Source of the DNA: a virus
Reading direction: 5' to 3' (one strand)
Virus record (IMG/VR): IMGVR_UViG_3300034073_004938
Location: 1-36,626 of that record
DNA: 36,626 nucleotides
Made by a program: the position numbers and the translations under genes. Positions 178-33,628 of the stretch are shown piece by piece. The notes beneath the pieces are model-generated. The model was not told the origin of the DNA and did no database searches. It saw only the letters and a program-made list of their open reading frames with translations. The stretch's first letter is position 1. Every line of letters starts with the position of its first letter.

Positions 178-1275
178 TCAGGCCACCGTGGCGACGCCGA
201 GCTGGTAGCAGAGCAGGTTGTGGGTAGCCTTTACCTGGGCCAGCGTGAGGGCGGCGGGGATTACCAGCGAGTGCGCTACGTCGGCCTTGGCCAGGCTGCT
301 GCCGCTCAGGAGGGTGCCGGCGCTGCTGCCGAAGAGGGTTGCCGGGCCGGCCGTGAGGCTGCGAATGACGGCGTCGGTGCCGATGCTGGCGGCGTTCACG
401 TAGAGGGTCGCGTTGTTGCTCGCGCCGGTCCACACCACGGCCACACTGCGCCACGTATCGGCGGCGCTGTTAATCGAGCGGGCGTTGGTCCAGGTTTCCG
501 TGCCGCCCACCCAGGGCTCGTAGCGGTTGTCGCTGGCCACCACGAGGCCGAGGCTGGCCCCGGCTCCAGCGGTGCCGACGGCGAACAGGACCTGCTTGGC
601 CGAGACGGTGCTGTGCCGGACGAATGCAAAGAGCGTGCAGGCGGGTTGCGCGCCCGATAACGCCACGTTGCTGGCGCCCTTTGCCCAGGCCGTGCCGTCG
701 GCCCGGAAGTGCTGGTAATCCTCCGCCAGCGAAGCCCCGAAACCGATGCTGCCGGCCTGCCAGGTGCCGACGTGCCCGGCGCTGACCGCATCCCAGAGCC
801 CGTCGCCGTCGTAGCTCCAGGCGCCGTCGTGGCGGATGGCGGTCTCGCGGTTGGCATCCCACCAGAGCAATGGGGTGGTGCCGGCGGCGGTGGCGACCTC
901 GGTGACCGTGGGCAGACGACGGCGAGGGGCGATCTCCAGCAGGGTCACGTCCACGTTGCGCAGATCCATCGTCGAGGCATCCCAGACGGGGGTGTTGGCA
1001 AAGCGGACCTCGGAATGCCCTTCCCGGCTGATGTTGTCCCGGTAGTAAAAGGCCTCGTAACCGCCGTCGCGGTCGCCATGGAACTCCTGGAGGCGGGCCA
1101 GCTCGGCGCGCGTGAGCGCCCCGTGGCTGAGGGCAAACTGCCGCCGGAACGTCTGCGCCGCCCAGAGCCGGCGGGCGTAGGTGACCCCGGACTCCATCTC
1201 GTCGGTGACGACCCGGTTGAGCGGGGTGACCCGGCAGGTGCCGATGCCGGACAGGGGATAGGTTTCGGTGCTCAT
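178..1275 (-). CDS. distal tail protein with LamG-like C-terminal domain
   Basis: A 365-residue protein and the last gene of the tail operon. Residues 1-110 contain the pattern SG..YARR.W.A..FRR.F, AE..RLQEF and GGYEAFYYRD, which resembles the DUF2460-type tail proteins found next to L/K/J-like genes in siphophages and gene transfer agents. From about residue 150 the protein changes to a jelly-roll type sequence (TLFAFVRH, VLFAVGT, LYVNAASIGT) like LamG/concanavalin-like sugar-binding domains. The likely role is in the tail tip, with the C-terminal domain touching host surface glycans. The start overlaps the stop of the NlpC-J gene by 4 bases. The family assignment of the N-terminus is moderate; that it is a virion tail-tip component is well supported by position. 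Confidence 0.65.
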   Translation of the reverse strand: MSTETYPLSGIGTCRVTPLNRVVTDEMESGVTYARRLWAAQTFRRQFALSHGALTRAELARLQEFHGDRDGGYEAFYYRDNISREGHSEVRFANTPVWDASTMDLRNVDVTLLEIAPRRRLPTVTEVATAAGTTPLLWWDANRETAIRHDGAWSYDGDGLWDAVSAGHVGTWQAGSIGFGASLAEDYQHFRADGTAWAKGASNVALSGAQPACTLFAFVRHSTVSAKQVLFAVGTAGAGASLGLVVASDNRYEPWVGGTETWTNARSINSAADTWRSVAVVWTGASNNATLYVNAASIGTDAVIRSLTAGPATLFGSSAGTLLSGSSLAKADVAHSLVIPAALTLAQVKATHNLLCYQLGVATVA

Positions 1276-5592: not shown

Positions 5593-6192
5593 TCATTGCC
5601 CTTCGAGGGCTTTCTTCACGCCCGCATTCACCTCGCGGAGGATCCGCGGCAGCGCCTGCTGCAGGGCGGGGCGCAGGAAGGGTTTGCCGGCGTAGTTCAG
5701 CGTCCGTGTGTGGGCGCGCACCTGTTCGACTTCCTTCGAGATCACGGCCTTGCCCAGCTTGCGGGCGGTGCCCTGCCCCGCGGCCGAGGCCGCCCGCGTG
5801 CCGGGACCGCCACTGCGGCCAAAGGTGACCGGGGCCATGCCCTGGCCGGGGCTCGCCACGATGCGGATCACGCGCGTGTGCGCCTTGACCTGTTGCGTGC
5901 CCTGGAACCCGAACTCGTGGAAGGCGCCGTAGAAGACATTGGTGCCGATGGCGCCGACGATGCGGTCGGTCTCGTGGTCCACGCGGCTGGTGATGCTGCC
6001 GAACAGGCGGCCGGTGACCACGCCCAGCCGGGCCGGGCGCGGACCTCGCAGGAAGCTGCGCTGGCTGATCCCGACGGCGTATTGCAGGCCGCGTGCAAGC
6101 GCCTGGCCAACCTCCTGCCGGACCCGCCCATCGAGCGAGTCGAGCTGGCGCAGGACGATCTGCGTGCCTTGGAGTTTGACGGTGGCTTGCAT
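5593..6192 (-). CDS. HK97 gp10-like / virion morphogenesis protein
   Basis: A 199-residue protein. It has VFYGAFHEFG and, near the C-terminus, KPFLRPAL, the two recognisable boxes of the HK97 gp10-like tail completion family (usually Y....EFG and .PFLRPA). The predominantly alpha/beta sequence and length fit. In many siphophages this gene sits between the connector and tail tube genes; here it lies after the tape measure gene, which is an unusual position. Its product would act at the neck or tail completion step. Confidence 0.75.
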   Translation of the reverse strand: MQATVKLQGTQIVLRQLDSLDGRVRQEVGQALARGLQYAVGISQRSFLRGPRPARLGVVTGRLFGSITSRVDHETDRIVGAIGTNVFYGAFHEFGFQGTQQVKAHTRVIRIVASPGQGMAPVTFGRSGGPGTRAASAAGQGTARKLGKAVISKEVEQVRAHTRTLNYAGKPFLRPALQQALPRILREVNAGVKKALEGQ

Positions 6193-6195
6193 GGC

Positions 6196-6228
6196 GAAGG
6201 CAGAAGGAAGAAGGCAGAATGCAGAATT
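6196..6228. repeat. GAAGGCAGAAGG-type repeat at a gene junction
   Basis: The purine-rich unit (GCAGAAGGAAGAAGGCAGAA) lies between the tape measure stop and the next start. The stop codon TAA of the tape measure gene (6227-6229) lies at the edge of the repeat. The same family appears at 16333-16364, 16433-16468, 26713-26752 and 26768-26792. Confidence 0.75.
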
Positions 6229-11109: not shown

Positions 11110-11694
11110 TCACAGGACGAGCCGGCGGTAGGGCTTGAGGATTTCCTCGACGCTGGGGAGCAGGTGCAGGCCCGGGGGCAGGCTCACCGAGCCGTCGCCC
11201 GACACGCTGCTGAGGCCCAGCCGATCGCGCTGGCGATACCAGTGCGCGCACTGTTCCAGGGCGGCGTGCTCGAGGTCCTTGGGCAGGGCGGTCTGGCCGC
11301 TGCCGACCGTCGCGCCGGGCAGCACGTAACCGCCGGCAAAGGTGACACGGGCATCATCGCGGCGGGTGCCCATCGGGCCGTCCACCAGCGACAGGAGCCC
11401 GGCGGCTTCGTTGAGGCGATAGGCCACGTCGGTCTGCGTGGTCCAGGTGCTTTCACCGGCCTCGCGGAGCGCGAGCGTGGTGATCGACTCGACGGGGAAG
11501 CGGTCCAGGAGCACCTCGGTCGCGTCGCCGTCAAAGCGGTAGGTGGCGGCGGCCTGCCGGTCGAACTGGCGATTGCACAACTGCTCGGCATGGGCCGTGA
11601 AGGCGGCCAGCAAGCGGGTCAGCAGCATGTCGTCCACGCTGTCCTCGATGCCGAGGCGTTCACGGAGTTCGGTGAGGCGGGCGAGGTGGCTCAT
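11110..11694 (-). CDS. head-tail connector (gp6-like adaptor)
   Basis: A 194-residue protein. The N-terminal half is helical (LARLTELRERLGI, LLTRLLAAFTAHAEQLCNRQF) as in gp6-like connector proteins, with the familiar R.F and beta segment YRFDGDATEVLLDRFPVESIT. The C-terminal half has VTFAGGYVLPG and LPKDLEHAALEQCAHWYRQRD, matching the P..L..A....A...W..R pattern of the family. It forms the ring under the portal to which the tail attaches. The start follows the secreted-protein cassette by a few bases. Confidence 0.78.
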   Translation of the reverse strand: MSHLARLTELRERLGIEDSVDDMLLTRLLAAFTAHAEQLCNRQFDRQAAATYRFDGDATEVLLDRFPVESITTLALREAGESTWTTQTDVAYRLNEAAGLLSLVDGPMGTRRDDARVTFAGGYVLPGATVGSGQTALPKDLEHAALEQCAHWYRQRDRLGLSSVSGDGSVSLPPGLHLLPSVEEILKPYRRLVL

Positions 11695-11697
11695 GGG

Positions 11698-12060
11698 TCA
11701 GAAAATGCTTTGCGTCGGGACGGCAAGGCCATTGGTTGCGAGGAACTCAAACGGCGCGGTTGGATTTGTGAGCGGATAGTCGAATACCAGCACGTTGGTC
11801 CACGGTGGCGTGGCGGTGAGCACGTTCAGCTTCACCCGGTTGGTTTGGCTGAACCGCGCAAGACACCAATAGTGGGTCGTGTTCGTGCCGGGCGGCGTGA
11901 CAAGGCGGGCAAGGAATGTTAATTCCCCGCCGCCGTCCGTGTCGAACTGCGCTGCCGCGAGTGCGTTGGCAGACGAAACCAGCGCGGCGGGAACGATGAC
12001 CACCGTGTTGGTCTGCGCTACGGCGGCGAGCGAAAGCAGAATTGTGAGCAACGGTCTCAT
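11698..12060 (-). CDS. small predicted secreted protein
   Basis: A 120-residue protein. ATG 12060 is chosen because it overlaps the stop of the previous gene by one base and gives a signal peptide (MRPLLTILLSLAAVAQ). The mature part is Thr/Asn-rich and beta-like with two Trp residues and no recognised domain. It belongs to a cassette of four genes with lower GC than the head and tail genes around it. It may be a chaperone or partner of the tailspike-like protein. Function unknown. Confidence 0.55.
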   Translation of the reverse strand: MRPLLTILLSLAAVAQTNTVVIVPAALVSSANALAAAQFDTDGGGELTFLARLVTPPGTNTTHYWCLARFSQTNRVKLNVLTATPPWTNVLVFDYPLTNPTAPFEFLATNGLAVPTQSIF

Positions 12061-12896
12061 CAGTGGGTGATGGTGATTCCAAGGTATGCGCCAAGCGCGT
12101 CTTCCACGTCCTCGATTGTCCCTGTTGAAAGCGCGGAGTTGCACACGCCGACGGCGGCGATTTCGCCGTTGAGGTAGAATCCTGCCACTGGGGTCAGGCC
12201 GTCAGTGCCGTTGTTGTATGCGCCAAGCAGCAGTGCATAGGTGGTTTGTTGATTTCCAACGCTTTCAGCACTCGCATTAGACGCGATCTGGACTCCGTTT
12301 TTACGGATCAGCGTCCCCGATGCCCGATTTAGAACGCAGGTAAGCAACTGCCAGCCCGTGTCGGTGTCCGAGCCGGATGACGAATACACCGTTCCGCCAG
12401 AGGTCCAAAGGGTGTTGGCGGCCCCCGATTCGATAAACGCAGCCCACCGCCCTCCAGCGCTGGCAGCCAAGCTCTTGCACAGAAGCCCGGCGTTTCCAGA
12501 ATTGCGCTTGAGCGCGATAAAGATTGTCCGCGAGTTCAGCCCAAGGTCCAACACGTCGCCCGCGGTCATCCAGTCATCGCCGCCGTCGAACAGGATGGAC
12601 GCCATGCCGCTGGAAGTTGCACCCGTCTTCCAGGTCGGTTTCGCCGCGGTGGTGGACTGCGTGAAGTGACGGCTGTTTCCAGAGAGATCGGTCGCGGTGG
12701 AAATGGAGGCGCCGTCGCTGAGCGCCGGGTCTTGCTGCGGGATTATTGAAAGCTCTGCGGTGAAGTAGTCGGAGAAGTCGAAACCTGATACGGGAAGTGG
12801 CGGAGTGATTCCGCTCTGCCCCTGCTGATTCATGAAGAACCCGGCCCCGAGCGCAGTGAGCGCGGAGCACAGGAGCAGTGAAAGGAGCGTCTTCAT
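12060..12896 (-). CDS. secreted LamG / concanavalin-like protein
   Basis: A 278-residue protein with an N-terminal signal peptide (MKTLLSLLLCSALTALGA). The remainder looks like a LamG-type jelly roll: SGNSRHFTQSTTAAKPTWKTG, ASILFDGGDDWM, RTIFIALKR, LIRKNGVQIASN and FYLNGEIAAVGVCNSAL. The last two are typical of the final strands of such domains. It is likely to bind polysaccharide. The same type of domain is fused to the last tail gene (178-1275). A signal peptide on a phage structural-type protein is unusual. The product may be exported to the periplasm or cell surface. Confidence 0.65.
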   Translation of the reverse strand: MKTLLSLLLCSALTALGAGFFMNQQGQSGITPPLPVSGFDFSDYFTAELSIIPQQDPALSDGASISTATDLSGNSRHFTQSTTAAKPTWKTGATSSGMASILFDGGDDWMTAGDVLDLGLNSRTIFIALKRNSGNAGLLCKSLAASAGGRWAAFIESGAANTLWTSGGTVYSSSGSDTDTGWQLLTCVLNRASGTLIRKNGVQIASNASAESVGNQQTTYALLLGAYNNGTDGLTPVAGFYLNGEIAAVGVCNSALSTGTIEDVEDALGAYLGITITH

Positions 12897-12929
12897 CGCA
12901 TCGCGGGTGGGTCGTAGGTGGGTGGCGTC

Positions 12930-13328
12930 TTACATCCGCACGCGAGTCCACACAGCAATATCGCCAGCAGGAGTGACCACGCCCGTCTGGGGTTCAAGAG
13001 CATACAGGTTTTCATCGGAGCAGAGGCAGAGGTTTAGGGTATGGGCGGAGCGATCCACCATGCAGGAGGCTTCGCCGAAAGTGTGGCCGGCATCACGCAG
13101 GCCGGCCTTGACCAGTGCGAGGTCGGCCTCGTGCGCGGCCCAGCGGGCGAACTGTTCGCAATCGAAGGTCTCCGGGACATACTCCAGCTTCTTGCCGGCG
13201 AGGTAGCCGCCGAACTCCCGCAGCCATTCCAGCGTCGGCGCAACGTAGGCCGCGTCCATGAGCTCGATGTCGCGCACACCGAGGGCGCGCAGCTTCAAGT
13301 AGATCGTTTCGATGGAGACTGGTTTCAT
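12930..13328 (-). CDS. papain-like / agglutinin_C-like protein
   Basis: A 132-residue protein. ATG 13328 overlaps the stop of the tailspike gene (ATGA). Residues 45-60 contain FDCEQFARWAAHEA and residues about 90-112 contain HTLNLCLCSDENLYALEPQTG. The C..FA ... H.N ... EPQ order is that of small papain-like proteins seen next to phage tailspike genes and in agglutinin C-terminal domains. It could be a cysteine peptidase or a structural derivative of one. It has no signal peptide, unlike its three neighbours. If enzymatic, it is a candidate for processing the tailspike or for lysis. Confidence 0.5.
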   Translation of the reverse strand: MKPVSIETIYLKLRALGVRDIELMDAAYVAPTLEWLREFGGYLAGKKLEYVPETFDCEQFARWAAHEADLALVKAGLRDAGHTFGEASCMVDRSAHTLNLCLCSDENLYALEPQTGVVTPAGDIAVWTRVRM

Positions 13329-16300
13329 CGGTAGTAGTTCAGCGCGGTCACCGAGACGCGATTGGTCCCGCCCACCACGGCGTTGATCCACGCGATTTCG
13401 GTGTGGTTGGTGTTACCCGTGCCGCCCGAAATTGTGAGTGTCGAACCGGTCGGGCTGAAGGCATAGCTCGGCAAAGTGAACGTGCAGTTGGTCGCCGCTG
13501 GCCCGACGTGAATTGTGCCGCCGTCCTTCGCAGCAAGTCCGGTCCATGCGAGCGTCGCGTCGTTTGTGCAGGTGAGCAGGTCGCGCTGGAGTGCTCCCCT
13601 GCCCGCGGTGATTGTTACGTCGGTGCCGGAGTAGGTGAGCGTGCCGACGCCAGCGTCGATCAGTGGCGTGCCCTCGATGCTCACCACTCCGGCCGCACTT
13701 CGCGCCAGCGTCGTGTCATCGTCCTCGCCGAGTTCAATGGCTCCGGTCAGGTAAATGTCGCCGTTGGGCCTGAACGTGTGCGTTGTGGTGCCGTTGGTCT
13801 GGAATCGGACCAAGTTGTTGGCGTCCGCGCCGGTGACATCAATTCTGAAACCACTGATTCCGTTGCCAGCAATGGCACTCAGTAGCGGCGTGCTGCTGCT
13901 GATAATTGTCGACCCGCTTAGCGTCGCGGTTCCGCTCACGTTAAGCGCGGTTCCGGCCGTGATCGTTGGGATCGTCGCCGAGGTGGCTGTGATGCTGCCG
14001 TCGGAACCGAAGGTGTGGGTGGTCGTGCTGTTGGTTTGGAAACGGACTAGATTTGCCGACCCGCCAAACACGTTTACCCGAAGGCCGCTGGTGCCATTGC
14101 CCGCGATTGCCGTGATCGTTGGCGCATCGTTGGTGAGTTGGAATTCGCCGCTAAAATTGGCCGTTCCGGTTACGTCAACAAGGCCGGCGTCGGTGTCAAT
14201 GGTCATTGTCGTCGCGCCGCCGCCTAGCACGGTCCGAAGGTCGCCGTCGCCGGTCGGTGTTCCGTTGGCATTGGCGCGGAAGGTTGTTGGAGATTTCCGG
14301 CTTGAAATCATCGGATACTCCGCACCCGCCGCCGCCGAACCGACATACCACTCCGACCCGGATGAGGCGATGTCTCGGGCAGTCAGATTGCCGACTATCA
14401 GGGCGGACGTTTCCGCACCTGTCCGCAGGATGTAGTTTGTGCTCCCGGGATTGAACCCAAGGTTGTTCATGTGCAGCGAACCAACCGCCACGTCGCCATT
14501 GGGGGAGTTGACCATATAGAGGTCGCCTGTGCTGCGGTAGAGCGCCTCCAGATGCACGTCTACGAAATGAACGTAGTTGTAGGACGGGGCGTAAATAATG
14601 GAGTCCGCATCGGTTACGACATGCTCCACGTCGAGGCCAACAAAGACATGTTGCCCGTTTCCGAGCTCGATCGGGTATCCGGTCGCCGGCTGGGCGAAAA
14701 AGGTCACCGTGCCAGTCACATCAACCGGAGCAGACCGGGACGACGAGGCGTCGCAGTAAATGTCTGACCCACTGATGGCGCGGACGAAATACTTCGTGTT
14801 ATAGGCCGAGTCCAATCCCGTAACGCTGAACATCCGATTGGTCGTCAGCAGTGATGGCAATGACCCGCTGCATGTCAGGACGATGTTGGTCCCGTTGGAT
14901 AGGCTGACGTTGGTGATGGCGGCGGTGTCCAACACCGTCACGTCGGCCAGGTTCTGGATATAGACGTTGTTCCACACATTCACGGTCCCGCCGCTCAACA
15001 CGCGAAGGCCTGAATGCGAGAAGGAGCGAATGAACAGGTTATCGATGGTTCCGTTGTAGACATTGACGGCTTGCGCTCCGTAAACAGCGTCGTAAGCGCG
15101 GCGGGCGGCGACGTTGCGAACGACGAACTTGTAGATTTCACCGTCGAACTTAATCGCCGCGGAGTTGGTTTTGGTCGCGTCCTGAAATGTCTGGTAGCGG
15201 ACCTCTATATCCTCAAGCTGGACGCTCTGCCCGGTAATGACCACGGCGGGAGTATTGTCGCCCGTGCAAACGATGGACGTGCCGTTGCCTGCGCCGCTTG
15301 TTTCGAGTCCGTCGCCCTTGAGTATGATTTGGTCAGAGAGTGTAAAGCTGCCGGAGTGAAGGTAGTTGCCGCGTGGCAGGTAAAGCGTTGTGGAAACGCC
15401 TGACGTGCGGACGGAATCGGCGATCCAATCCCGTGCGGCATCCAGCGCGGCGGTGTCGTCGGTTACGCTGTCGCCCTTGGCGCCGAACCATTTGGCATTT
15501 ATGGCCTCGCCGGTAGTAACCCGCTCCCACGCATACGTTGCGTTGGCAGTCGAGGCGAAGAATGTGCCGAGGTTGGTTGTTCCGGAACTGGTCAGCACCC
15601 GGCGCACACTTCCACCGCCGCCATCACCTGCGGAATTGTAGCCCAGCACATCAACCCGCGCATAGGTTGGAACCAGCAGTGGGTCCACATCGGCCACCAG
15701 CGATGCCACGGTTGCCACCGTGCGCGGGCGGGCCGAAGCATCATTCTCGGTCGACGTGTTGCCGTTCGGCGTCAGCGCGTAACCGTAGTCCACCGTGTCC
15801 TGCAGCTCGTCGCCCGTGTCAATCACGGTGCTGCCGTAAATTGAGATGTTTGTCAGCGAGCCCGTGAGGTTCACCGCGGCGCCGTTGGTGATGTCGAGTT
15901 TGGTCGGGGCCGCGTTGGTTGCGAGCAGGGCGTCGAGGCTGCTCTTGAGGTAGACGACGGGGTCGGCGGAATCCACGTCGGTCTTCACGCCGCCGTTCTG
16001 GCTGCTGGTCGCGCTGGGGTATTGGCCGGGGTCGGCGGTGTAGACGTAGCTGAGCCCGTCGGTGGTGAGCGCGGTGACGTTGTTGGTCGTCGAGTCGTTG
16101 GGGACGGCGATGGTGAACTGGTCGCGGCCCCGGATCAGGACGGTGTAATCCCCCTGCTCCAGCGTGACGCTGAAGGTGCCGTTGGTGCCGGTGGTGACCG
16201 ACTTGGGGCCGGCGGTGATGACGATGCCGGCGTCGGCCTGGGGATTGGACAGGGGCTGGAAGACGACCGTGGTGACCAGGGCCGTGCCCGTGGTGTCCAC

Positions 16301-16426
16301 GATGGTGCCGGTGACCACGGCCGCGCGGCCGTGGAAGGCAGAAGGAAGAAGGAAGAATGCAGACAGCAACGCGGCGGCAAGGCGCGTGCGGGCGGTCTGC
16401 CAGAGGGTTGCGGGGTGTGGTTTCAT
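13325..16426 (-). CDS. large tailspike-like protein with signal peptide and pectate-lyase beta-helix
   Basis: A 1033-residue protein starting at ATG 16426. Residues 1-35 form a signal peptide whose core SAFFLLPSAF is encoded by the purine-rich repeat at 16333-16364. Residues 36-125 match the carboxypeptidase-regulatory-like beta domain (VVTGTIVDTTGTALVTTVV, GTFSVTLEQGDYTVLIRG). Residues 311-328 hold AKWFGAKGDSVTDDTAAL, the hallmark of pectate_lyase_3 type tailspike beta-helices, which extends to about residue 750. The C-terminus has two similar units of about 80 residues with AGNGTSGLRV / AGNGISGFRI and LVRFQTN..TTHTF. It is a probable receptor-binding and polysaccharide-degrading protein. 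The location between capsid and connector genes is unusual. Confidence 0.75.
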   Translation of the reverse strand: MKPHPATLWQTARTRLAAALLSAFFLLPSAFHGRAAVVTGTIVDTTGTALVTTVVFQPLSNPQADAGIVITAGPKSVTTGTNGTFSVTLEQGDYTVLIRGRDQFTIAVPNDSTTNNVTALTTDGLSYVYTADPGQYPSATSSQNGGVKTDVDSADPVVYLKSSLDALLATNAAPTKLDITNGAAVNLTGSLTNISIYGSTVIDTGDELQDTVDYGYALTPNGNTSTENDASARPRTVATVASLVADVDPLLVPTYARVDVLGYNSAGDGGGGSVRRVLTSSGTTNLGTFFASTANATYAWERVTTGEAINAKWFGAKGDSVTDDTAALDAARDWIADSVRTSGVSTTLYLPRGNYLHSGSFTLSDQIILKGDGLETSGAGNGTSIVCTGDNTPAVVITGQSVQLEDIEVRYQTFQDATKTNSAAIKFDGEIYKFVVRNVAARRAYDAVYGAQAVNVYNGTIDNLFIRSFSHSGLRVLSGGTVNVWNNVYIQNLADVTVLDTAAITNVSLSNGTNIVLTCSGSLPSLLTTNRMFSVTGLDSAYNTKYFVRAISGSDIYCDASSSRSAPVDVTGTVTFFAQPATGYPIELGNGQHVFVGLDVEHVVTDADSIIYAPSYNYVHFVDVHLEALYRSTGDLYMVNSPNGDVAVGSLHMNNLGFNPGSTNYILRTGAETSALIVGNLTARDIASSGSEWYVGSAAAGAEYPMISSRKSPTTFRANANGTPTGDGDLRTVLGGGATTMTIDTDAGLVDVTGTANFSGEFQLTNDAPTITAIAGNGTSGLRVNVFGGSANLVRFQTNSTTTHTFGSDGSITATSATIPTITAGTALNVSGTATLSGSTIISSSTPLLSAIAGNGISGFRIDVTGADANNLVRFQTNGTTTHTFRPNGDIYLTGAIELGEDDDTTLARSAAGVVSIEGTPLIDAGVGTLTYSGTDVTITAGRGALQRDLLTCTNDATLAWTGLAAKDGGTIHVGPAATNCTFTLPSYAFSPTGSTLTISGGTGNTNHTEIAWINAVVGGTNRVSVTALNYYR
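13785..14115. repeat. diverged tandem repeat within the tailspike gene
   Basis: Two segments about 235 bp apart encode similar units: GNGISGFRIDV with LVRFQTNGTTTHTF, and GNGTSGLRVNV with LVRFQTNSTTTHTF. At DNA level GTCTGGAATCGGACCAA and GTTTGGAAACGGACTAG mark the two copies. It is a duplicated fibre module. Confidence 0.7.
16333..16364. repeat. GAAGGCAGAAGG-type repeat encoding part of a signal peptide
   Basis: Purine-rich repeat of the same family as 6196-6228. On the minus strand it codes SAFFLLPSAF, the hydrophobic core of the tailspike signal peptide. Confidence 0.75.
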
Positions 16427-16432
16427 CGGGGC

Positions 16433-16468
16433 CTTCTTCATTCTGCCTTCTGCCTTCATCATTCTGCG
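16433..16468. repeat. inverted copy of the GAAGGCAGAAGG-type repeat
   Basis: TTCTTCATTCTGCCTTCTGC and following bases lie just upstream of the tailspike start in the opposite orientation to the copy at 16333-16364, so the two could pair in the mRNA around the start codon. Confidence 0.75.
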
Positions 16469-16568: not shown

Positions 16569-17963
16569 TTAGCTCGCGGCGGTGATGATGCCCGCGACGG
16601 CACCGGTCGCCATGAGGCCGGTAGTCATGCGCTCCAGCACGCGGATGAGGATTTCATCCGTGGTGAAGGCCGCCTGCTCCGACGACTCGAACCGCAGGCC
16701 GCCACGCAGCCCGAGGTAATGCCAGGACACGTCGCCAAACAGACCGTAGACGGTGCTGGCGGCGTCGGAGGAGCTGAACGCCGGCATGGCGTCGACCCAG
16801 CGGATGGGGAAGCCGTCCAGCGAGGCACCGTTGAGGCCGTTGGCCTGGTAGGGCTTGTCGCCGCTGGTGTTGAACGTCGAGAACTTGTGCTCGAACGACG
16901 GGTGGAAGTAGTAGGCCGACATGCCCAGGGCCGCGGCATCCACGATGGGGCGCATGGCCCGCACCTTGGCGAGGGTGATGTCGTTCGCGGACAGGTCGCC
17001 GCTGGCGAGGGCCACCGTCTTGGAGTTGGTGACCACGTTCTTGCACAGGCCCTCGGCGGTGCCGTTGAGGCCCGAGCCGGCGCCGGTCGCGCGGAAGAAC
17101 TGGTAGTCTTCGCAGTAGGCCGCGCCGCGGGCACCCCAGCGGGCCGCAAACTGGCCGATGGCGACGATGGAGTCCGCATCCAGCTCGGAGGGGAGCCGGA
17201 GCAGGCCGCCGAATTTCTCCGGCGTGAAGGTGACCCATTCGGTCTGGGGCGACTTCTCGGTGACCGTGCCCGACCCCGCGATCAGCGAGAACGTGGGGTC
17301 GGTCTTGAGGCGCGGCAGCTTCACACTGGAACCGCCGAGCGGGTAGACCGTGCCGAACCGGCGCGCGGCGCCATACAGGCTGACCAACTCCGCGACCTCG
17401 CCCGAGTATTGGACGGGCAGCGGGATGTCCGAGGAACTGAGGGCCGTCTTGACGTTCAGGCCGGTGATCTCGCTCACGACGCCCAGGTAGAGATCCTTGA
17501 CCTTCGAGCCGAGCGACTGCTGGGCGACGTCGGACTTGAGGCGGTTGAACAGGATGTGAGCGGTCAGGTTGGCCGCGGCGTCATCGGTCAGCACGCCGGT
17601 GGAGCGCACCAGGTGCTTCCGCTCGGCGAGCTGGCTTGCGCGCAGCAGCTTGAACTGCCTCTGGAAGTCGTCCACGGACTGCTCGATCTTCTCGATCTTG
17701 TCGGTGGCTTCCTTGATGAGGCCGAACTGGCTTTCGGACTTCGCGACGGAGGCCTGAATGCCCTTGATCTGCTCACCGGCTTCGGTGAGCAGCTTGACCA
17801 CCTCGGGGTCGGCCGTGATGCCGAGGAGCGGCGTGAGGGCGACGAGGCCGAGGGCGGCGGCCGGGCTGAGGATCAGCGCGGCGGCGAGGATGGCGACGGC
17901 CAGGAAGGCGAACGCCAGGGAACGGGAGGCAGGGAGCAGGGAGCAGGGAGCGGGGAACTTCAT
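16569..17963 (-). CDS. HK97-fold major capsid protein with hydrophobic N-terminus
   Basis: A 464-residue protein. The C-terminal 300 residues follow the HK97 capsid family: GSSVKLPRLKTDPTF, VTFTPEKFGGLLRLPSELDADS, DYQFFRATGAGSGLNGTAEGL, SAYYFHPSFEHKFS, GFPIRWVDAMP and VYGLFGDVSWHYLGLRGGLRFESSEQAAF, named here as successive landmarks. Residues 45-110 are a coiled coil (EQIKGIQASVAKSESQFGLI, KIEKIEQSVDDFQRQF), the expected delta/scaffold domain removed by the protease. Residues 1-45 are unusual. ATG 17963 leads into a repeat-encoded FPAPCSLLPASRS and then a strongly hydrophobic stretch. No later ATG exists before the scaffold domain, although GTG codons do. Confidence 0.85.
   Translation of the reverse strand: MKFPAPCSLLPASRSLAFAFLAVAILAAALILSPAAALGLVALTPLLGITADPEVVKLLTEAGEQIKGIQASVAKSESQFGLIKEATDKIEKIEQSVDDFQRQFKLLRASQLAERKHLVRSTGVLTDDAAANLTAHILFNRLKSDVAQQSLGSKVKDLYLGVVSEITGLNVKTALSSSDIPLPVQYSGEVAELVSLYGAARRFGTVYPLGGSSVKLPRLKTDPTFSLIAGSGTVTEKSPQTEWVTFTPEKFGGLLRLPSELDADSIVAIGQFAARWGARGAAYCEDYQFFRATGAGSGLNGTAEGLCKNVVTNSKTVALASGDLSANDITLAKVRAMRPIVDAAALGMSAYYFHPSFEHKFSTFNTSGDKPYQANGLNGASLDGFPIRWVDAMPAFSSSDAASTVYGLFGDVSWHYLGLRGGLRFESSEQAAFTTDEILIRVLERMTTGLMATGAVAGIITAAS
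17930..17958. repeat. GGAGC-type repeat at capsid N-terminus
   Basis: GGCAGGGAGCAGGGAGCAGG and following bases encode PAPCSLLPAS at the start of the capsid protein on the minus strand. It is the same family as the tract at 9170-9284. Confidence 0.75.
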
Positions 17964-30068: not shown

Positions 30069-30361
30069 GCGCGCGGGATCTGGGGTTGGCCGTTGCTCTC
30101 GTGTTGCTTGCAGAAGTCGGTGGCGCAGGGCGTGGGCCAGCGGGTCACCAGGTTGCCGGCGCCGGCGCCGCGATCTTGCAGGAAGATTTTCGGCTCGCGG
30201 TTGCGGAACTCGCCGCGCGGCAGCACGGTGGCCCCCACGACCTTGGCCGTGATGGCATCGTTGCGGACCCACCACTTGCACGTGGAGCACGGAGCCGGGA
30301 GCGCAGAAGCAGGGAGCACCGAGCTGGGAGCGGGGAGCCGGAAAAGGGACGAGAGCTTCAC
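30065..30361 (-). CDS. small cysteine-containing protein with repeat-derived N-terminus
   Basis: A 98-residue protein with a GTG start (30361) overlapping the MuB stop (GTGA). Residues 8-27 are a GGAGC-repeat translation (PAPSSVLPASALPAPCS). The remainder, CKWWVRNDAITAKVVGATVLPRGEFRNREPKIFLQDRGAGAGN and CATDFC, contains four cysteines that could bind zinc. An original start downstream may have been replaced when the repeat entered. It is co-translated with MuB. Confidence 0.5.
   Translation of the reverse strand: MKLSSLFRLPAPSSVLPASALPAPCSTCKWWVRNDAITAKVVGATVLPRGEFRNREPKIFLQDRGAGAGNLVTRWPTPCATDFCKQHESNGQPQIPRA
30280..30352. repeat. GGAGC-type repeat at the start of the 98-residue gene
   Basis: Units such as GGAGCACGGAGCCGGGAGCG and GGGAGCACCGAGCTGGGAGC encode its Pro/Ala/Ser-rich N-terminus. 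Confidence 0.75.
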
Positions 30362-31449
30362 AGGTCACCTCCGATCTTTTCGAGTTGGCGGCGGCCGGCG
30401 TCGGCCAGCAGGACGTGTTTCCAGTCGAGGCGTTGCTTGCGTTTGCCGGCGAGCGCGCTGGCCATGCGCAGGACGGTGAGCCACATGCCCAGGGCTTCCT
30501 CGCTGAGCACCTTGGTCTGGAGCGCGAGGGCGTCGCCTTCCGCGGGGTCGAGGCCGTAGTGGGCCGCGAATTGGTTGAGGTCCTTGCGCGGCGGCGTGGG
30601 GGGCAGCACGAGGTTGTAGAGCCGGCGGCGGCGCGTCTGCTCCATGAGCTTGCTGAACTCGCTGCGGTCGTCGTCCAGGGCGCGGTTGAGCAGCCGGGTG
30701 GCGCTCAGGATCACGCCGCACTTCCGCGCGTCGTAGAGTTCCCGGATGAATTCCAGGGTTCGGATGCTGACCGCGCTGCCGCCCTTGATCGGCAGGCAGC
30801 GGTCCACCTCGTCGACGATCAGCAGCATGCGGTCGTCAAAGGCGCGGATGATGCGGTCGCGGATCGTGCTGCTCTTGCTGTCGCCGATGTTCAGGGCGTC
30901 GCGCAGGGCATTGATGAAGTTGCCCAGGCTGCCGCCCACCGGCATCTCGACCTTGCGGGTGGTGCCGTGGTTGTGGGTGCGGGTGTAGTGGTCGAGCGAG
31001 GCGGTCTTGCCGATCTGCGTGTCGCCGATGATGAGGGAGATTTTCTGGAACTCGCGGGTCTGGTCGCACACGGCCTCGACCTTTTTGTAGAGGCTGGTCT
31101 CGATGAACTCCACGGCGCGGCTGGTGGCGCGGCGTTCGGCCAGCTCGAGGAACTCGCCGAGGACACGGCAGACTTCGCCGAGGTCGCCCGCGTAGTCATT
31201 GCGCAGCACGCGGCTGAGGGTGCTGGCGCTGTAGCCGCTCTTCTCGGCCAGTTCCTCCAGCGTGAGGTTGTGCTGGTGGCCGAACTCATTGAGCCGGCGG
31301 ATGGTGCTGCGCTGGTCGTCGGGGAGGTGCTGCGTGGCCACGTAGACGACGTCGCCGGCAAACCGCCAGCGGCGGGTGGTGTCGCGCGCCTCGCGGGCGG
31401 CGCTCATGGCGTCGGCCGAGGGCGGGGGGGTCTTGGTTTCTTGCTGCAT
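30358..31449 (-). CDS. MuB-like AAA+ transposition activator
   Basis: A 363-residue protein. Residues 50-90 hold a helix-turn-helix (LNEFGHQHNLTLEELAEKSGYSASTLSRVLRND), as in Mu B. Walker A is GDTQIGKT (142-149), preceded by the hydrophobic strand ISLII. Walker B is MLLIVDEVD (208-216), and an SATRL sensor region lies near residue 252. The C-terminus has a helical domain. It would deliver target DNA to the transposase and give target immunity. It lies directly downstream of the transposase gene. Its length and domain order suit a MuB relative of the larger type. Confidence 0.85.
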   Translation of the reverse strand: MQQETKTPPPSADAMSAAREARDTTRRWRFAGDVVYVATQHLPDDQRSTIRRLNEFGHQHNLTLEELAEKSGYSASTLSRVLRNDYAGDLGEVCRVLGEFLELAERRATSRAVEFIETSLYKKVEAVCDQTREFQKISLIIGDTQIGKTASLDHYTRTHNHGTTRKVEMPVGGSLGNFINALRDALNIGDSKSSTIRDRIIRAFDDRMLLIVDEVDRCLPIKGGSAVSIRTLEFIRELYDARKCGVILSATRLLNRALDDDRSEFSKLMEQTRRRRLYNLVLPPTPPRKDLNQFAAHYGLDPAEGDALALQTKVLSEEALGMWLTVLRMASALAGKRKQRLDWKHVLLADAGRRQLEKIGGDL

Positions 31450-31487
31450 AGGTGCTGCTTGTTTTTGGTATTGGGCTTCGCTGGGGG

Positions 31488-33353
31488 TCAGACCAGTTCG
31501 GCCAGGAGATCGACGGCCTCGGCCTCGGGCTCGCGGGAGCGCGGGCGGGGCGCGGGTTCGAGGAGGTCGGCCAGGGCCTCGGGGCCCAGCTCGCGGACGC
31601 GGCGGGCGGTGGCCTGCCGCTCGGCGGTGCGCTCCTCGGTGCGGGCAATGGCGGCGCGAAGTTCCTCACCCACCGCGGCGGTCTGCCGGTCGACGGCGCA
31701 GGGAGCGCCGAGCGGGGAGCCGGGAGCTTCGAGCGGGGAGCACGGAGCGGGGAGCACGGGGCTCGGAGCGGCGCGGCGGGTGAGGTAAGGGGTGAGGGTG
31801 CGGACCTCGGTCGCAACGAAGCGGCGCTCGGCGGTCTTGCGGGCGGCTTCGTCGCTGAGCTGCTCGTCGGTGGCGTCGAAGGCGTCAATCGGGCCAAAGC
31901 TCTTGGCGATGCCGAGGAACTTCCGCGAGAGGCTCAGGAGCACGGCGTCGGCCTCGGGCCGGTGGTCGTTCCAATACACGATGACCTTGGCTCCGCGCAG
32001 GGGGGTGAGCAGCTCGGGATTGTCCCACCGGAAGCTCCGCCGCTTGGGGCCGGAGCCACGGGTGAGCAGCAGGCCGTTGCGCGTAACGGCGACCAGGTCC
32101 ATCGCGCTGCGGTAAAGCCACCGGGCCGAGTCGGGCAGGAACCGGAGACGCTCGGCGGCGCCATCCTCGATCCACTTTTGGTCGGGGCTGAGGCCGCGGC
32201 AGATGGTGCCGTCGTTGCGCTCCTGGTTGAGGTTGCCCATGACCTCCCAGATGTGGGTGGCGAGCTGGTCGTTGCGGAGCAGGAATTCGGAGGGGTGCAG
32301 CTTGCCAGACTTCGCGGCCTGGAGCTTGGCCTTGAGCGCCTCGGGCATCTGCTTGCGCTGGTCGCGCCCCGCCCAGCCGGGCACGAGGTCCATGGCGCGC
32401 TGCAAGCCGTTGAACATGCCCTCGATCTGCTTCGAGCGGGGGTCGTAGCTCCGCCGCATGTCGAGGCCGAGGCTGCGGAGGCCGCCGATGCGGTCGTCGT
32501 CGCTCAGGCCGGTGCGGTGGCCAATGACCGCGTTGGCCTGCCAGTGGCCGCCTTCCAGGACCATTCCCCGGTGGGGCAAACCGGCGCTGTCGAAGGTGTC
32601 GCCGAACAGGCCCCAGATGTCGTCGGCGGCGTTGTATTGGCCACCGTCGCGGATGATCAGGCGGAGGTTGAGCCAACGGAGGGAGCAGATGTCGGCGACC
32701 GGGAGCAACTGCGCCTGGGCAATGCGCCAGCCGAACTCGGCGGTGGGATCATCCACCCAGCAGAGGACGTTGCTCGTCATGTCGTCGGCCACGAACCAGT
32801 CGCCGGCCTTGTGGGCGCTGTAATCGCGCTCGGTGAAGCGGCCATCGAGCCGGGCCGCGCGGTGCCCTTGCAGCCGGGCGGTGAGCAGGGGCGAGGACTT
32901 GAGCGCCTTGCCGATGCTCTTGGGCACGTGTGACTTGCTGGCAAACGCCTGGTGAACGTGCAGCCGGGCGTCGGCGCTGAGGTCGTCGCGCAGGGTGAGG
33001 CGGCGGAAGGCAAAGGCCGCGCTGCCGCTCTCCTGGGCGGCGGCGCGGGCCGCGAAGAGTTGTTCCTCGGTGAGGGCCGCGGCGGCGGGTTTGCGCCCCA
33101 CCACGCCGCGTTTCTGGTCCACCAATCCGTCGAGCCCGTGGGCGGCGTGCCGCGCCACAAACACGCGGAGCCGGCCGGGGCTCATGGTGAGGCCGCTCTC
33201 ATGCACGAGCCCGCAGGCGGCTTGCAGGGCCGCTTCCTTGCCCAGGCCGCCGGCTTGCAGGGCGGCAAATTGGCCGACGAACCATTCGCGGGCGAGGGCC
33301 TTGGCGGCGGCGCGACTGCCGGCGACGGCGGAGAACGTGACGGAGGGATTCAT
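31488..33353 (-). CDS. MuA-like DDE transposase
   Basis: A 621-residue protein starting at ATG 33353, overlapping the stop of the 92-residue gene. Residues 1-130 form the helix-turn-helix DNA-binding domains. The catalytic core has Asp190/191 in GDWFVADDMTSNVL and Glu311 in DPRSKQIEGMF. The residue at the middle catalytic place appears to be Glu267 in MVLEGGHWQANAV, where Asp is usual. A beta-barrel domain follows (PLRGAKVIVYWNDHRP). Residues 527-552 are a GGAGC-repeat translation between barrel and C-terminal helical domain (VGEELRAAIARTEERTAER). It cuts and joins the element ends. Confidence 0.88.
   Translation of the reverse strand: MNPSVTFSAVAGSRAAAKALAREWFVGQFAALQAGGLGKEAALQAACGLVHESGLTMSPGRLRVFVARHAAHGLDGLVDQKRGVVGRKPAAAALTEEQLFAARAAAQESGSAAFAFRRLTLRDDLSADARLHVHQAFASKSHVPKSIGKALKSSPLLTARLQGHRAARLDGRFTERDYSAHKAGDWFVADDMTSNVLCWVDDPTAEFGWRIAQAQLLPVADICSLRWLNLRLIIRDGGQYNAADDIWGLFGDTFDSAGLPHRGMVLEGGHWQANAVIGHRTGLSDDDRIGGLRSLGLDMRRSYDPRSKQIEGMFNGLQRAMDLVPGWAGRDQRKQMPEALKAKLQAAKSGKLHPSEFLLRNDQLATHIWEVMGNLNQERNDGTICRGLSPDQKWIEDGAAERLRFLPDSARWLYRSAMDLVAVTRNGLLLTRGSGPKRRSFRWDNPELLTPLRGAKVIVYWNDHRPEADAVLLSLSRKFLGIAKSFGPIDAFDATDEQLSDEAARKTAERRFVATEVRTLTPYLTRRAAPSPVLPAPCSPLEAPGSPLGAPCAVDRQTAAVGEELRAAIARTEERTAERQATARRVRELGPEALADLLEPAPRPRSREPEAEAVDLLAELV
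31690..31770. repeat. GGAGC-type repeat in the transposase linker
   Basis: Repeated GGAGC units encode SPVLPAPCSPLEAPGSPLGA and adjacent residues between the catalytic/barrel part and the C-terminal domain of the transposase. Confidence 0.8.
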
Positions 33354-33628
33354 CGGAAAGTGGCGGGGAGGCAGAGAGGGTGGGACTCGGACAGGTGAAG
33401 CCGTTGCTGGGCGTAACCGGCGGCCCAAAGGTCCACTTGGTGCCAGACTTCGCGGGCGGCGGGGTCGGCGGTGAGCCGGGATTCCAGGCGGGCCATTTCC
33501 CGGAGTTCAGTCAGGGCGGCCAGGGCGATGAGCACGGTCGCCGACGGGCCACGCCCAGTCCTTGTGCCCGCGGGCTTGCGCGGCGCGGCATCCGGGGTGC
33601 GGACGTTGGCGGTTTGGGGACTGGGCAT
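33350..33628 (-). CDS. small early protein upstream of transposase
   Basis: A 92-residue protein with ATG 33628 (an upstream TTG is less likely). The N-terminus is basic and Pro/Thr-rich. The C-terminal helix-rich part (SATVLIALAALTELREMARLESRL, VDLWAAGYAQQRL) is compact. It overlaps the transposase start by 4 bases. Function not recognised; in Mu-type phages this place often holds an Ner-like regulator, but I see no helix-turn-helix. Confidence 0.55.
   Translation of the reverse strand: MPSPQTANVRTPDAAPRKPAGTRTGRGPSATVLIALAALTELREMARLESRLTADPAAREVWHQVDLWAAGYAQQRLHLSESHPLCLPATFR

Follow-up and report, generated by a model that had tools for sequence, protein, structure and literature searches.

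Textbook tailed phages build both heads and tails in the cytoplasm, so that any exported parts would need to be added late. Usual tailspikes are made without signal peptides and located with the tail genes, and the lambda-type side tail fibre likewise has no signal peptide and a gene among the tail genes. Virion proteins with Sec signal peptides are represented by the coat proteins pIII and pVIII of filamentous phages. Lom of lambda is an exported phage moron that forms an outer-membrane barrel (PMC12309495). In the Anabaena phage A-1(L), a cyanophage, gp82N attaches the neck fibre to the neck protein gp5 (PMC10966104). A search of the open-access literature found no precedent for structural proteins of tailed phages with signal peptides.

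The cassette between capsid and connector

The window, meaning the whole stretch of DNA analysed, is an IMG/VR record of 36,626 bases. On its minus strand it encodes, in order, a holin, terminase, portal with a Mu-F domain, protease, capsid, four-gene cassette (11698-16441), connector, tail terminator, tube, tape measure and tail tip. An earlier note had placed four genes between capsid and connector, and Phage_capsid and Phage_connect_1 matches of the flanking genes confirm this layout.

16569..17963, minus strand: major capsid protein, HK97-type (Pfam Phage_capsid, 4.7e-21)
13325..16441, minus strand: pectate-lyase spike/fibre protein with signal peptide (PF12708, 6.3e-12; phrog_4250 EPS depolymerase, 4.8e-13)
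16322..16441, minus strand: spike signal peptide (predicted cleavage before AVVTG, at a position as in 12 homologues)
16061..16321, minus strand: spike N-domain, a transthyretin/CarboxypepD-like beta sandwich resembling fibre-anchoring domains (AF2 model, VIA, PDB profile)
14948..15502, minus strand: beginning of the pectate-lyase-like beta-helix of the spike (PF12708, Pect-lyase_RHGA_epim, residues 309-493)
12930..13328, minus strand: small Cys-motif protein, weakly papain-like/Agglutinin_C-like, without signal peptide (Agglutinin_C, E 0.26)
12060..12896, minus strand: LamG/ConA-like lectin-type protein with signal peptide at 12843-12896 (phrog_10356, 4.6e-11; homologues in the related contigs L022 and L058)
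11698..12060, minus strand: 120-aa protein of no known family with signal peptide at 12016-12060
11110..11694, minus strand: head-tail connector (neck), flanking the cassette (PF05135, Phage_connect_1, 1e-10; phrog_442, 3.5e-22)

The genes are tightly coupled, with an ATGA-type overlap between the spike stop and the Cys-motif start and a one-base overlap between the LamG-like and small-protein genes. For the spike, the ATG at 16441 is preferred over 16426; the small protein starts at 12060. The reduced GC reported for this region holds for overall composition (0.60-0.63 in cassette genes versus 0.67-0.70 elsewhere in the window) and for third codon positions (GC3 0.71-0.77 in all four cassette genes versus 0.84-0.93 in nine other measured genes), and the low GC3 common to the four genes indicates a shared composition history.

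The pectate-lyase assignment of the spike was borne out by its PF12708 and phrog_4250 matches, and two other labels are tentative. The second gene, called papain-like, gained an Agglutinin_C match that lies below the cut-off; its product carries no signal peptide and had no PDB sequence match. The LamG label of the third gene agrees with matches to phrog_10356 (virion structural; 4.6e-11, also 3e-25) and, for a profile including two homologues, to an S-layer-protein domain in the PDB (4qvs, 6e-5), but the window protein had no Pfam match at E 0.1; its homologues reach Laminin_G_3 at 0.03-0.06. A C-terminal LamG domain (6e-9) is also found in a DUF2460-type tail protein (window 178-1275), which lacks a signal peptide, unlike the LamG protein of the cassette. 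No other obvious fibre gene was found in the parts of the window examined. At 30361-33428, a TniB/MuB-like AAA ATPase (TniB, 1.3e-7) lies beside a 646-aa putative transposase, and from these genes the virus looks like a transposable (Mu-like) phage.

Relatives with and without the cassette

Searches with portal and connector profiles added about 35 distinct contigs from metagenomes or genomes (L numbers). Two sets can be told apart: equivalents occupy the same place in 14 IMG/VR relatives (L003, L006, L007, L010, L011, L012, L013, L019, L022, L069, L070, L073, L074 and L076, forming the cassette set with the window), and 13 others (L023, L025-L036) have none, their connector directly following the capsid. 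Cassette-set contigs carry one to four genes between capsid and connector, or after the capsid to the contig end, including a lipoprotein-like gene in L006. A match of an L011/L022 protein to phrog_2122 (minor head; E 0.015) was unconfirmed and set aside. Altogether, about 16 related or module-sharing phages were found besides the window.

A second backbone is represented by L055 and L058, whose capsid belongs to another family (phrog_1005; 4e-60 for L058). In both, a leader-bearing N-domain spike gene lies between those for tape measure and tail assembly, with further leader-bearing genes after it; a leader-bearing gene of the decB family also stands behind the capsid. The L058 spike matches a tail fibre family (phrog_30742, 1e-9) and is followed by a LamG homologue. 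The third cassette gene of L055 begins MKNQSMFNRRGFIKRGALFLPAIFLP, a Tat-type signal by motif (NRRGFIKRG).

Single-protein scans of IMG/VR with the capsid, connector and spike found no close relatives. A tblastn search of 50,697 phage records with the spike, the LamG protein, decA (a family of small proteins behind the capsid) and the L011 protein returned no matches, so that these records supply no leaderless homologue for sequence comparison. One partial portal match was found in a Pirellulales MAG. About 300 sampled genomes of the Pirellulales' phylum contained distant prophages, all without the cassette, and the N-domain matches in this sample were weak, superfamily-type and in long host-type proteins.

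Predicted export signals across the family

Three of the four window proteins were said to have signal peptides, and the present scan agrees: the spike, LamG-like and small proteins have one and the Cys-motif protein does not. Predicted cleavage falls at MKKAPMKPHPATLWQTARTRLAAALLSAFFLLPSAFHGRA|AVVTG in the spike, MKTLLSLLLCSALTALGA|GFF in the LamG-like protein and MRPLLTILLSLAAVA|QTN in the small protein. All three show Sec/signal peptidase I features under a rule-based predictor made for this work (not SignalP), which looks for a positive n-region, an uncharged hydrophobic core and small residues at -3 and -1.

Counted over the contigs first gathered, 16 of 22 cassette genes have signal-peptide-like starts, compared with 29 of 250 other genes (OR 20, Fisher p 9e-10). 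Half of the six cassette misses (L003, L010, L012/L021) have an evident leader beyond the predictor's limits, and among the 29 scoring non-cassette genes are lipoprotein-like ones and four that encode capsid proteins. Since the enrichment is repeated across related phages, it is not due to chance, and as judged from sequence the signal peptides are genuine insofar as they recur across the family. The (-3,-1) rule holds in 30 of 30 leader proteins versus 4% of positions within the same proteins, a figure that is partly circular for decA, decB and the LamG-like proteins, whose mature starts were read by eye. The 30 combine these three families with 14 spikes, among them that of L010, for which the profile does not back membership of the N-domain family. 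All members of the three families bear leaders: seven to nine decA proteins behind the capsid, four decB proteins and three LamG-like proteins. In L003 (8247-9065), decA forms an in-frame fusion with a small N-terminal domain ahead of it, which places the leader in mid-protein; this domain resembles a separate gene of L069 (5746-6036).

By profile, the N-domain occurs in 13 distinct spikes (window, L006, L007, L012, L013, L055, L058, two in L069, L070, L073, L074 and L076), which have about 90 residues in common and differ in the sequence behind. In all 13, a hydrophobic leader ends in a peptidase-I-type (-3,-1) site where the N-domain begins. The leaders themselves do not align, their sequence not being conserved; in most relatives they are short and of textbook form. 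Because L013, L058, L073 and L076 have no start codon between -8 and +14 of the mature start, their leader must be translated and a leaderless product is impossible.

Fold of the N-domain and of decA

An AF2 model of the N-domain, from seven sequences, is a beta sandwich with pLDDT 71. Its top VIA match is the A-1(L) neck fibre chain 8keg_a (Z 10.2, rmsd 3.2 Å over 91 residues), which, judged by chain length, is gp82N. Further matches are the tail tips of Bxb1 (9.0) and Ur-lambda (8.9), the A-1(L) tail fibre (8.3) and the XM1 neck (8.2), and all phage fibre and tip matches begin at residue 1 or 2. A PDB profile match to 9d93 (E 0.0014) was also obtained. Bacterial and animal transthyretin-like domains tied with the phage fibres in VIA, and attachment to virions therefore does not follow from the fold by itself; bacterial surface proteins (DUF3823, pilins, CarboxypepD_reg) often have similar folds as well.

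The decA model reached pLDDT 84. The eight best VIA matches of its central domain (about residues 72-149) have Z of 8 to 13 and comprise phage tail tube, baseplate, tail tip, capsid and tailspike proteins and a phage-type capsule lyase. There was no PDB sequence match for decA.

Interpretation

That this is a receptor-binding-type cassette, as first proposed, is well supported by the retention of an anchor-like N-domain with variable C-termini, the pectate-lyase fold, the lectin, the tail-fibre PHROG match of a homologue and the occurrence in two backbones. With a probability of roughly 0.4, its products are real virion appendages (neck or tail fibres, lectins and decoration proteins) that would be exported by Sec, once perhaps by Tat, and would become attached to virions at lysis or later. 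Among the options raised earlier (display on or secretion from the host, or assembly on virions in the periplasm), the last is the best fit, albeit unproven. The outer virion parts would comprise a spike or neck/tail fibre, in which an anchoring N-domain is joined to a polysaccharide-cleaving beta-helix, along with a lectin-like partner and small accessory proteins, all synthesized as pre-proteins unlike known tailed-phage fibres. Sec would move the pre-proteins across the inner membrane, a Tat-type signal apparently substituting in one relative, and signal peptidase would trim the leader, leaving the anchoring domain at the very start of the mature fibre. The mature proteins would then fold in the periplasm, and may dock on finished particles once lysis breaches the inner membrane. 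In support of this, the leader enrichment, the leader-to-N-domain border in 13 of 13 spikes, forced leader translation in four phages, the anchor fold, the tail-fibre and virion-structural PHROG matches, the virion-type fold of decA and the Tat-like signal of L055 were counted in favour. The building of tailed-phage heads and tails in the cytoplasm, the frequency of the anchor-like fold in bacterial surface proteins, the hydrophobic capsid leaders, the repeat-derived spike leader and the use of a custom predictor were counted against.

The main rival is that the proteins are secreted or surface-displayed without entering virions: a late depolymerase, lectins and accessory proteins would loosen polysaccharide, block progeny re-adsorption or alter the lysogen surface. 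Signal peptides by themselves predict as much, the N-domain fold is frequent in extracellular bacterial proteins, the L006 cassette has its lipoprotein-like gene and the lower GC3 sets the genes apart as separately acquired cargo. This reading is somewhat less probable than that of virion appendages; against it stand the conserved fibre-anchor N-domain with changing C-termini, PHROG matches to tail fibre and virion structural families, the decA fold, the location with head genes in one backbone and tail genes in the other and the lack of another obvious fibre gene in the window parts examined.

Less probable still is that the virion proteins are made and assembled in the cytoplasm, with leaders that keep assembly intermediates attached to the inner membrane or that the phage protease cuts off. 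The capsid proteins are relevant here. That of the window has a hydrophobic leader MKFPAPCSLLPASRSLAFAFLAVAILAAALILSPAAALGL (17963-17850, maximum KD19 2.57), and strongly hydrophobic starts ahead of a scaffold-like region also occur in L002/L008 (8833 in L002), L006 (~4435), L010 (13146), L034 (5901), L069 (4209), L072 (3329) and L073 (2298), with a WQLxQ...S[KRG]R motif common to L006, L010, L069 and L073. Leader-bearing capsid proteins can hardly be exported, so hydrophobic leaders may serve another use; a membrane-anchored capsid precursor is possible. Membrane holding would also accommodate the long tail ahead of the leader in five spikes (L006 ~6054-6180, L010 15363-15500, L069 6156-6320, L073 4631-4760, L074 6060-6240), at least four of which contain PxxDRx[IML][KR][ST]P, a motif that might be a cytoplasmic docking peptide. 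However, the AxA-type sites where the domain starts, the positive n-regions and a Tat-type leader are characteristic of exported proteins, and the short leaders of most relatives are of textbook form.

The window spike leader coincides with a 124-bp inverted repeat (16334-16457) that holds both its start codon and its core:

16334..16360, minus strand: inverted-repeat arm encoding part of the spike signal-peptide core (89% complementary)
16431..16457, minus strand: second arm, covering the spike start codon and a GAAGG-type ribosome site

A further copy of the motif lies at 6193-6214, and in several other leaders part of the sequence is simple repeat-like DNA sharing 12-mers with other places. 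Signal-peptide cores of the window, L011 (4350), L013 (9025), L055 (9200), L069 (6345) and L074 (6261) coincide with interspersed or simple repeats, such as the GAAGGCAGAAGG inverted repeat and repeats of CTTTCAACCTTCA type. Leaders may have been rebuilt repeatedly from repeat DNA with their property kept. Such DNA and the GTG codons just past the window spike leader could suggest that the signal peptides are artefacts, produced when misplaced start codons extend the genes through interspersed repeats of host type. This is very improbable, as the window's LamG and small-protein leaders lack the repeat and many relatives combine non-repeat leaders with no alternative start codon, which largely refutes it for the family.

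Returning to exported appendages, a tentative extension is that this tailed-phage lineage finishes its virions outside the cytoplasm: Sec- or Tat-exported fibres, lectins and decoration proteins would dock in the periplasm or medium at lysis, and some capsid leaders would be membrane-seeking, pointing to assembly near the inner membrane. If so, the cytoplasm-only rule for tailed-phage building would be broken, and the periplasm, which is oxidizing and disulphide-forming, would be usable as a finishing compartment. Export signals would also mark the receptor-binding genes of phages whose hosts are uncultured and in which such genes are otherwise hard to spot amid head genes.

Comparison with known systems

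Filamentous phages are of an unrelated type, their virions being extruded through the membrane rather than released by lysis. Lom resembles the spike as a signal-peptide protein encoded near fibre genes, but is not a fibre with an anchor domain. EPS depolymerase tailspikes (phrog_4250, PF12708) have the same pectate-lyase-like beta-helix and polysaccharide-degrading annotation. The lambda-type side tail fibre (PF08400; 9e7m) is similar in fold (Z 8.9), in a weak profile match (E 0.019) and in the N-terminal position of its anchor. The spike differs from the fibre anchors of A-1(L), XM1, lambda and Bxb1 in that these have no signal peptides. Like the spike, gp82 of A-1(L) (PDB 8KEG) has an N-terminal beta-sandwich anchor, and A-1(L) neck fibres are attached beside the connector; for the spike, attachment to the neck is a possibility suggested by gene adjacency to the connector. 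In contrast to the spike, gp82 belongs to a myophage, its fibre domain starts from Met1 without a signal peptide, and the passages drawn on mention no pectate-lyase domain for it (PMC10966104).
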